Source: Flavobacteriales bacterium
GTDB taxonomy: Bacteria > Bacteroidota > Bacteroidia > CAIKAF01
Assembly (NCBI GenBank): GCA_025055635.1
Contig: JANWWQ010000017.1
Span: 1 to 34,652 of the forward strand
Length of the DNA: 34,652 nucleotides
Direction: 5' to 3'
The stretch's first letter is position 1. Each line of letters begins with the position of its first letter. Shown one piece after another: positions 19,921 to 23,958 of this stretch. Under the pieces are notes generated by a model. The model saw only the letters and a list, made by a program, of their open reading frames with translations, was not told where the DNA came from and did no database searches. The translations under genes were made by a program, and so were the position numbers.

Positions 19921-20047
19921 GGGGAATGTGCAACAAATCAAGGTATGAGAGTCGTAAAAAACCAAATCTTTAAAAAAATTTAAAATTCCGTGATTAAATC
20001 ATATGGTAGCCCAGAAATAAGCCTATAAATTCCTCCAGGTATGGCCT

Positions 20048-20055
20048 TACTTTTG
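20048..20055 (+). promoter_or_regulatory. -7 promoter element of the methyltransferase-glycosyltransferase gene
   Basis: TACTTTTG matches TAnnTTTG and is identical to the prfB -7 element. It ends six bases before ATG 20062, so the transcript would have about a 2-nt leader. The upstream TTTG is not evident. An ATG at 20041 lies ahead of the predicted start and is therefore disfavoured. Confidence 0.5.
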
Positions 20056-20061
20056 CCCCGG

Positions 20062-21489
20062 ATGAGGTCCAGAGAATCGCCAAAGGCTTATTTTGACCGT
20101 ATTGCTAAAGAATTGCCCCGTCGGAGACGTCTTTCTGCTTATTATTGGAGCGATTGTATCAATTATGCCAATTTTTTTATCCATGCACAAGATCGTGTGC
20201 TGGAAATAGGTTGTGCTAACGGCGACCACTTGGCCCAACTGAAAGGAAGTTATCGCTGCGGGATAGATTACTCTCTATCTATGATTGAAGAAGCCCGTCG
20301 CAGGCACCCTGACTTGCATTTTATCCACGCTGATGCCCAGTACACTGTTCCAGAGGAAAAATTTGATGTCATTGTCCTGATGCATGTAATTGGATGGGTG
20401 GATGATGTCCAAAGACTTTTTGAAAACCTCCATCGCTGCTGTCACAGCCGAACGCGCATCATCATCGGATACTACAATCACTTGTGGGAACCCATCATTC
20501 GCCTAGCGGAGTTCATAGGTTTGAAACCCAAAGCCCCTCAGCTGAGCTGGCTCTCTCGCACCGATATTGAAAACCTACTGTACTTAGCAGGTTTTGAGGC
20601 TTTCCGTTCCACCCGCCGCATGCTGGTGCCTCTGAATGTACCCATTCTGTCTTACATCGCCAATAAGTTTCTGGCGCCTCTACCTTTTTTCAACGCCTTG
20701 TGCCTAAATAAATATATTAACGCCAGGCCTCGCCCCTCCTGTTGCGCAAAGAATAGAAAGGAGTATTCAGTATCGGTAGTGATTCCGGCCCGGAACGAAA
20801 GTGGTAACATTGAAAATGCCATTAGGCGCATTCCCCCGATGGGATCCCAAACAGAAATCATCTTCATAGAAGGGCATAGCACTGATGATACCTGGGAAGT
20901 GATCCAGCGGGTCAGTCAGCAATATGCCTCTACCCATACAATTAAAATCGGTCGGCAGTCTGGAAAGGGAAAAGGGGATGCAGTGCGTACGGGTTTCTCC
21001 ATGGCCTCAGGCGACATTCTGATGATTTTGGACGCAGACTTAACGGTAGCGCCAGAGGATTTGCCAAAATTTTACGAAGCTTTGGTAACCGGCAAGGGGG
21101 AATTTATCAACGGTAGCCGCTTGGTGTATCCCATGGAAAAACATGCCATGCGTTTTCTGAATATGTTGGGTAATAAGTTCTTTAGCTCCGTCTTCTCCTG
21201 GCTTCTGGAACAACCTATCAAGGATACCCTTTGCGGCACTAAAGCGATGTTTCGCAATGATTACCTGCGTCTCATAGAAAACCGCAAATTTTTTGGGGAA
21301 TTTGATCCTTTCGGCGATTTTGATTTGCTATTTGGAGCATATAAATTGAATCTGAAAATCGTGGATTTGCCCGTCCGCTATCGCGAACGAACATATGGTA
21401 CCACCAACATCAGCCGTTGGAAGCATGGCCTATTGCTGCTGCGCATGTGTCTTTTTGCCGCCGGTAAAATACGTTTTGTTGGCCGCTGA
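20062..21489 (+). CDS. Fused SAM-dependent methyltransferase and GT2 glycosyltransferase
   Basis: 475 residues in two enzyme domains. The N-terminal ~215 residues are a class I methyltransferase: VLEIGCANGDHLAQL is the SAM-binding glycine-rich loop, followed by CGIDYSLSMIEEAR, HADAQYTVPEEKFDVIVLMHVI and a Methyltransf_11-like core. The C-terminal ~235 residues are a GT-A glycosyltransferase: YSVSVVIPARNESGNI, FIEGHSTDDTW, GKGKGDAVRTGF, the DxD motif LDADL and a late LPVRYRERTYGTTNISRW, as in polyprenyl-phosphate glycosyltransferases. No C-terminal membrane helices are obvious. A single polypeptide joining both activities suggests sequential glycosylation and methylation of one glycan or glycolipid (inference). 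No neighbouring sugar-biosynthesis genes identify the product. Confidence 0.9.
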   Translation: MRSRESPKAYFDRIAKELPRRRRLSAYYWSDCINYANFFIHAQDRVLEIGCANGDHLAQLKGSYRCGIDYSLSMIEEARRRHPDLHFIHADAQYTVPEEKFDVIVLMHVIGWVDDVQRLFENLHRCCHSRTRIIIGYYNHLWEPIIRLAEFIGLKPKAPQLSWLSRTDIENLLYLAGFEAFRSTRRMLVPLNVPILSYIANKFLAPLPFFNALCLNKYINARPRPSCCAKNRKEYSVSVVIPARNESGNIENAIRRIPPMGSQTEIIFIEGHSTDDTWEVIQRVSQQYASTHTIKIGRQSGKGKGDAVRTGFSMASGDILMILDADLTVAPEDLPKFYEALVTGKGEFINGSRLVYPMEKHAMRFLNMLGNKFFSSVFSWLLEQPIKDTLCGTKAMFRNDYLRLIENRKFFGEFDPFGDFDLLFGAYKLNLKIVDLPVRYRERTYGTTNISRWKHGLLLLRMCLFAAGKIRFVGR

Positions 21490-22997: not shown

Positions 22998-23834
22998 ATG
23001 CTCCTGGAGGGCCATTATACCTATTCATTTGATCCGCAGAAACCCCTGGGATCAGGTCCTTTTGGAAAGACCTATGTAGGGCATTGCACCCAAACCGGTC
23101 AACAGGTACGCATCCGTTTTAGAAATGACCACTGGAAGCCTCCATTGGTCTTACCGGAGTCTCTTCAACCTCCGTTGCGTGAAGTTCTTACCCTGCACAA
23201 TGGGGTAGTGGTAGTGATTGAATCCTTCGTGGAGGGGCAGGACCTGAAAAGCTTTCTGGCCCAATCCGGCCGGCCCCTTCAGGTATCTCAGGCCCTCCTT
23301 TTGGCCTCCGGGTTATGCCAGCATTTGCAGCGTTTCCACGAGTTGAATTGGGTGCATGGCGACTTAAAGCCTTCCAACATCCTAATTCCTTCTCATGGTG
23401 GCCTTCAGGACGCCTGCCTCATAGATTTTGATTCCGCCGCTCCGAGCGGAAAACGTTTTGCGCCTTACAGTTTTGTATATGCCCCGCCAGAGTTGCTTCT
23501 CAATCACAAGGATCTGTACGGCCCCCACGGCGATTTGTTCAGTCTGGCGGTGGTACTATGGGAAGCCCTCACGGGGGAACCCTTTTTACAAGCCTCTCAT
23601 CCGGCTATTCTCTTTCAAATGCAAATCAGCCGGCCTATGCCAGCTCACCCTCGCATCCCTCCCCCCTTGCTGAAAGTGCTTCAAAAAGCGGCCAGCATTG
23701 CCGCCTTTGGTCGCCCTCCTCAGATGCTTGATCCCTTCCAGGTGCGCCAAGCCCTCAGGATGGCCATATCCCACAGGTATCATCAGGCATCATATTTGCT
23801 TCAGGATTTATTCCAGGCCATTGGGGAGACTTAG
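22998..23834 (+). CDS. Protein-kinase-fold protein with altered catalytic motifs
   Basis: 278 residues, essentially a bare kinase domain without sensor or membrane segment. The glycine loop [12 protein letters not shown] (17-23 onward) is intact. The beta-3 strand reads VRIRF, so the ATP-anchoring lysine position is Arg40. The stretch to the hinge ([10 protein letters not shown]) is unusually short, leaving little room for the alpha-C helix and its glutamate. The catalytic loop is HGDLKPSN (Asp122, Lys124, Asn127 present), the DFG motif is DFD (Asp143-Phe-Asp145), and the substrate-clamp YAPPEL is recognisable. It therefore keeps the metal-binding and catalytic-base residues but lacks the beta-3 Lys and DFG Gly: either an atypical active kinase or a pseudokinase. 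Target unknown; no phosphatase or FHA partner is adjacent. Confidence 0.85.
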
Positions 23835-23863: not shown

Positions 23864-23948
23864 GGAGAGATGGCAGAGTGGTTTAATGCGGCGGTCTTGA
23901 AAACCGTTGTACCGAAAGGTACCGGGGGTTCGAATCCCTCTCTCTCCG
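23864..23948 (+). tRNA. tRNA-Ser (anticodon UGA)
   Basis: The acceptor stem GGAGAGA (23864-23870) pairs with TCTCTCC (23941-23947), followed by discriminator G. The anticodon stem GCGGT/ACCGT encloses loop CTTGAAA with TGA at 23898-23900. The long variable arm (TACC-GAAA-GGTA) is the class II feature expected for serine. The T arm GGGGG-TTCGAAT-CCCTC is normal. CCA is not encoded (CCT follows). Confidence 0.97.
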
Positions 23949-23958
23949 CCTGGCAGGT

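Follow-up and report, generated by a model that had tools for sequence, protein, structure and literature searches.

Does a bacterial kinase-fold protein that carries arginine instead of the beta-3 lysine and DFD instead of DFG still bind ATP and act as a kinase, or has it become a pseudokinase? This question is raised by a stand-alone open reading frame of 278 amino acids (P0001, positions 22998-23834, forward strand) in the window, that is, the whole stretch of 34,652 nucleotides analysed here (contig JANWWQ010000017.1 of a Flavobacteriales bacterium). A first-pass annotation made from the sequence alone had proposed an atypical kinase or a nucleotide-binding scaffold. This is reasonable as a description, but it treats the two unusual marks as one kind, and comparison with the homologues separates them.

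Gene, fold and family

The frame is open from end to end, starting with ATG and stopping with TAG. The Pfam Pkinase profile scores 68.1 bits (cut-off 31.7), and as the match is restricted to residues 71-212, the N-lobe is the divergent part. Structure prediction, which had been suggested as a check, gives a confident two-lobed kinase fold (AF2 with 20 aligned homologues, mean pLDDT 92.8, pTM 0.90); together with the score over the curated cut-off this places the protein among the Hanks-type kinases. It also falls under the sequence definition of a pseudokinase (at least one of the beta-3 Lys, HRD Asp and DFG Asp gone) through Arg40, with Asp122 and Asp143 retained. The closest solved fold is the kinase domain of Mycobacterium PknB (VIA Z 25.9, rmsd 2.2 over 240 residues); POMK and TRIB1 are absent from the VIA rows shown, which is uninformative on either. 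PknB is a PASTA-repeat receptor with a canonical VAIK, alpha-C and DFG, unlike the window protein, which scores 53.8 bits against the PknB PASTA kinase equivalog NF033483 (cut-off 450). The supposed lack of a membrane domain is confirmed: the kinase domain stands alone, and hydropathy peaks at 1.25 (Kyte-Doolittle mean over 19 residues), without any transmembrane segment in the protein.

Every residue named in the first-pass annotation (Arg40, DFD, HGDLKPSN, PPE and an intact glycine loop) is right. All features lie on the forward strand. By residue reading and alignment, the glycine loop G18-S-G20-P-F-G23 (23049-23066) is intact. The beta-3 strand reads V37-R38-I39-R40 at the VAIK place (23106-23117); here Arg38, at the place of the VAIK alanine, had been overlooked, and it is also found in the sister, a full-length homologue at 51% identity from the only same-genus genome among 60 searched. 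The alpha-C region had been called very short, and indeed the model has no alpha-C helix at all: beta-3 (residues 36-42) is followed by a loop with a three-residue turn (54-56) and then by beta-4 (61-65), and residues 43-60 (23124-23177) lack the conserved glutamate in the alignment as well. The catalytic loop H120-G-D122-L-K124-P-S-N127 (23355-23378) is intact, and D143-F-D145 (23424-23432) retains the metal-binding aspartate with an acid at the DFG-Gly place, both according to the residues and the 50-row family alignment. Residues 153-190 (23454-23567) comprise the activation segment, the P+1 region and the PPE motif (P163-P-E165), and the family alignment further shows a family-typical insert with P240-P241 and the invariant R260 (23715-23777).

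Members of the family are stand-alone Hanks-type kinases of about 270-340 amino acids found in the class of the window genome. The search of 60 genomes yielded, besides the sister, matches at 24-37% identity in other genomes of the window's family and class. In the class sample a member is present in 19 of 395 genomes (E 7.7e-53 or better); at E 1e-40 members occur in 16 of 24 genomes of the family of G037 and in 29 of 60 of the family of G258. From the latter, loci from 20 of the 29 matching genomes were taken in (G258 among them again) and 9 matches were left out. A phylum sample of 395 genomes, searched at E 1e-45, gave no matches besides the window and G150, which is an ordinary kinase and had served as outgroup; this sample partly overlaps the class sample and was kept out of the counts. 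Among phage records, 10 give weak matches (24.7-27.3% identity among the five listed). We found no paper on this family in the open-licence literature, by which the absence of such work is not proven.

The 50-row alignment leaves out the ordinary kinases G150, G031out and G001out, and the 19-row table used for the sister comparison leaves out G124 in addition. Invariant in the 50 rows are HRD-His, HRD-Asp, Asn127, Pro164, Glu165 and Asp179, with DFG-Asp in 49; in the insert, P240 is found in 48 rows, P241 in 44 and R260 in all 50. A basic-aromatic C-terminal tail (e.g. KKSIWKFWE) is picked up by a simple pattern in 31 of the 50 members (L006, L009 and L112 among them), against 8% of internal 14-mers; the window copy and the sister are without it. 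It might serve as a membrane or docking tail.

Private arginine and recurrent acid

Whether Arg40 and DFD are conserved among homologues, as the first-pass annotation asked, has two different answers. At the beta-3 position the 50 rows hold 48 lysines, one gap (a truncated row) and a single arginine, that of the window. Arg40 is thus not conserved (Lys in 48 of 49), whereas an acid in place of the DFG glycine is recurrent (26 of 50; Gly 21, Glu 21, Asp 5, Ala 2, Ser 1). The sister reads VRIK and DLD and so keeps Lys40; the codon is AAA there and CGT in the window, so that a single misread base does not account for Arg40. Judged by these sequences, loss of the beta-3 lysine is confined to the window copy. 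Arg38 is a mark of the genus, with Arg at that place in 2 of 49 rows.

The acid tends to accompany a shortened alpha-C. Glu is missing from the alpha-C column in 18 rows, 17 of which carry Asp or Glu at the DFG-Gly place, and 23 of the 24 rows without acid at that place have the alpha-C-column Glu. Overall, 49 of 50 rows have an acid in one of the two places or in both, the only exception being G002. Nine of the 26 acid rows also carry the alpha-C-column Glu; in the f69 rows it is often kept alongside DxE, where the alignment is loose, and alignment over the shortened helix is uncertain in general. The length of the stretch from beta-3 to the hinge glycine follows the same pattern (49 rows, the N-terminally truncated L118 being left out): 24 rows are short with acid, 6 short without, 18 long without and 1 long with acid. 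The corresponding Fisher p of 1.9e-7 ignores shared ancestry and is descriptive only; a tree-based independent-pairs test, with 5 usable pairs, is not significant (p = 1).

Eight related sequences whose beta-3-to-hinge stretch is equally long show the exchange most directly: L096, L098 and L100 combine Ile with DLD and L102 combines Ile with DLE, whereas L099 and L101 have Glu with DLA and L097 and L103 have Glu with DFG. In a tree built without the alpha-C-Glu and DFG-Gly columns, the acid states need at least 3 changes. A tree with all 26 acid rows forced into one clade is rejected (AU p 0.0047); when window and sister are joined to the L096 group only, the result is borderline (p 0.046). 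The AF2 model of L100, which represents another acid lineage, likewise has only a five-residue stub for alpha-C.

Given the complementarity of acid and alpha-C together with the exchange among the eight members, DFD is best read as a relocation of the lysine-pairing acid from alpha-C, by analogy with the DYD pseudokinases and POMK; the acid at the DFG-Gly place would then probably substitute for the alpha-C Glu instead of reflecting a simple loss. What suggests this is covariation with few independent events, combined with predicted models, and G002, which has neither acid, speaks against it, as do the dispensable Lys-Asp pair of POMK and the beta-3 Lys of TRIB1, which meets backbone instead of an acid.

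Activity and competing readings

The window protein is a real, conserved and atypical kinase-fold protein. Taking sequence and analogy together, our preferred reading is that it may be an ATP-Mg-binding kinase of low activity, with DFD as the moved acid and the arginine as a late step; for this joint reading we estimate a probability of roughly one half (0.52). Under it the alpha-C helix would have been shortened first, perhaps already in an ancestor common with G002: a clade of window, sister and G002 is not rejected (p 0.58), and as all three are without a normal-length alpha-C stretch, helix loss may be the oldest change. Glycine would then have been replaced by Asp at the DFG-Gly place in the genus (shared with the sister), where it could pair with the beta-3 base. 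The exchange of Lys for Arg, best read from the alignment as later than the acid relocation, would have followed in the window lineage only. This order (helix loss, then Asp, then Arg) is one that we infer. The C-lobe, catalytic loop, metal ligands and activation segment would have been retained throughout, and ATP-Mg would be bound via Asn127 and Asp143, with a putative Arg40-Asp145 salt bridge. The protein that results may be a kinase that is weak or works only under certain conditions, or it may bind the old substrate in a nucleotide-gated manner. ATP binding is likely, judged from the retained residues; residual kinase activity is uncertain.

The main rival is a scaffold without ATP. Here the pocket would refuse ATP, with Arg38 and Arg40 facing inward, and the C-lobe and activation segment would form a module that binds the ancestral substrate or regulates it allosterically. 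Lys40 is gone, and by the geometry of PKA we take the side chain of the genus-specific Arg38 to share a face with Arg40 and to point toward the adenine pocket; yet Arg38 is common to the sister, which keeps the lysine and the other catalytic residues. The N-lobe also diverges faster from the sister (23 of 61 positions identical, against 111 of 205 in the rest; the ratio of 0.70 is the lowest of 8 pairs compared), whereas no stretch is better conserved than the activation segment (29 of 38, 76%). An arginine in the adenine pocket combined with faster N-lobe divergence fits a loss of nucleotide binding, but a fast N-lobe with a kept activation segment would fit a rewired kinase as well as a substrate-binding pseudokinase. 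TRIB1 offers a precedent for a pseudokinase with a short alpha-C and an acid, but KSR2 binds ATP despite its beta-3 Arg (PMC4718504). Retention of HGD, Asn127, Asp143 and the glycine loop likewise argues against an empty pocket, and we hold this reading to be possible though rather doubtful.

It might also be argued that the protein is a fully active kinase whose ATP-gripping lysine now sits in beta-2, like that of WNK and POMK. The candidate would be Lys24, which directly follows the third glycine, but by PKA geometry its side chain presumably points away from the cleft, which counts against this role. POMK does employ a Lys at the start of beta-2 (PMC5142810), but the Lys24 column is unconserved (K 3 and R 6 of 50) and the sister has Arg24 together with Lys40, which makes this account improbable. 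Finally, a decaying gene with Lys-to-Arg as an early step of loss is very improbable: the family is patchy in the class sample and the kinase is missing from two genera of the window's family (g4, g5), so losses happen, but in the codon comparison with the sister (NG86) the open frame shows dN 0.51 and dS 3.4 (dN/dS about 0.15, with dS saturated), third codon positions differ in 61% and second positions in 32% of cases, the window branch is no longer than that of the sister (0.39 vs 0.71), and the family-invariant catalytic residues remain in place, as do all nine positions without variation in the 20-row alignment. By these comparisons purifying selection acts on the gene, and it is not in decay. 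The first-pass annotation had named homologues with a normal VAIK and DFG, exposing this copy as a decaying one, as the case against it; such homologues exist, and the decay does not.

An extension of the preferred reading goes further: the transfer of the acid from alpha-C to the DFG-Gly place would have happened on three or more separate occasions, with alpha-C becoming shorter on each, kinases without alpha-C would be regulated without helix-in/helix-out switching, and the Arg40/Asp145 of the window would be the end of the series, still phosphorylating. We regard this as unlikely. If relocation is true, the family would offer a natural stepwise series (Lys, Glu and Gly; Lys, short alpha-C and Asp/Glu; Arg, no alpha-C and Asp) showing how a kinase can dispense with the alpha-C switch, and matched natural pairs (L100 and L099, window and sister) would suit testing the need for the Lys-Glu pair. 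A missing DFG glycine would then be a poor ground for calling a bacterial kinase dead.

Genome context and known parallels

The window kinase is the sole Pkinase match over the cut-off in its 94%-complete assembly, which argues against its acting as the partner of another such kinase; no ordinary kinase over the cut-off is found in this genome. A second, weaker match has a motif that we take to be like that of a UbiB/ABC1 protein. Two PP2C-type phosphatases are encoded elsewhere in the genome. The sister genome G001 has an additional ordinary kinase (L021; VAIK, HRD, DFG) at the end of contig C31.

Upstream of the kinase gene lies a ZIP transporter, and downstream are a tRNA-Ser (tga, 23864-23950, forward strand, starting 30 bases past the kinase stop codon) and respiratory-complex genes. 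These neighbours are not beside the sister kinase, which is on contig C82 with the ActB relative on C33. A conserved operon was considered and rejected: directly beside the kinase gene of relatives stand various unconnected housekeeping genes (fumarase-type lyase, MetH, ribosome recycling factor, FBPase, thymidylate synthase), and no neighbour is kept across the family in the loci compared. In several relatives (L035, L037, L038, L033, L077 and L079, from G003, G058, G007, G037, G115 and G177) the kinase gene and genes for cytochrome oxidase subunits or their assembly (COX3, COX4, UbiA-type, DUF420) are no more than about 10 kb apart; in the window, 1.7 kb separate the kinase gene from a cytochrome/alternative-complex-III-like run of genes downstream of it (from 25550). 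The proximity to respiratory genes is possibly an old synteny. A 482-aa open reading frame (20041-21489, forward strand) reads as a SAM methyltransferase fused to a family-2 glycosyltransferase. PADLOC (mad6, PD-T4-6) returns many generic kinase-domain matches, the best (mad6, 100.4 bits) covering part of the profile only, and no defence gene was recognised beside the kinase gene among the window's open reading frames.

The remaining parallels are drawn with four systems as described in the cited papers. TRIB1 has a shortened alpha-C and SLE, and its beta-3 Lys contacts backbone, not the Glu of SLE (PMC4718504). The window protein likewise has a shortened alpha-C and an acid at the DFG-Gly place, but TRIB1 has lost the DFG Asp and kept the beta-3 Lys. 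KSR2 has a beta-3 Arg, was seen with ATP and one Mg bound and is reported active (PMC4718504). The window protein shares this Arg together with the retained HRD-Asp, Asn and DFG-Asp; KSR2, however, is a Ras-pathway scaffold and its alpha-C is present (in the out position).

The acid arrangement itself is described, in the literature found, in other kinase groups only (DYD and POMK). In the crystal structure of POMK (SgK196) the Lys pairs with an Asp at the DFG-Gly place, and an Asp-to-Gly mutant does not have reduced activity, so that the Lys-Asp pair is dispensable in POMK (PMC5142810). Like the window protein, POMK lacks the alpha-C Glu and carries an acid where DFG has its glycine (DLD, against DFD), but besides the dispensable pair it differs in its beta-2 Lys, in MCD for HRD and in phosphorylating mannose on a glycan. 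The DYD pseudokinases combine a beta-3 Arg and a missing alpha-C Glu with an Arg-Asp bridge in AlphaFold3 models (O'Boyle 2025, PMC12599244). They are membrane-associated and belong to actinobacteria and firmicutes, whereas the window protein has no transmembrane segment, comes from another bacterial group and has Lys-bearing kinases as its nearest relatives; the motif agrees in the third residue but not in the second (D-Y-D, against D-F-D in the window and D-L-D in the sister). Judged from the marks described, the likeness lies in the exchange of the beta-3 Lys for Arg, the lack of an alpha-C Glu and the acid at the DFG-Gly place, all of which the window protein has in common with them.
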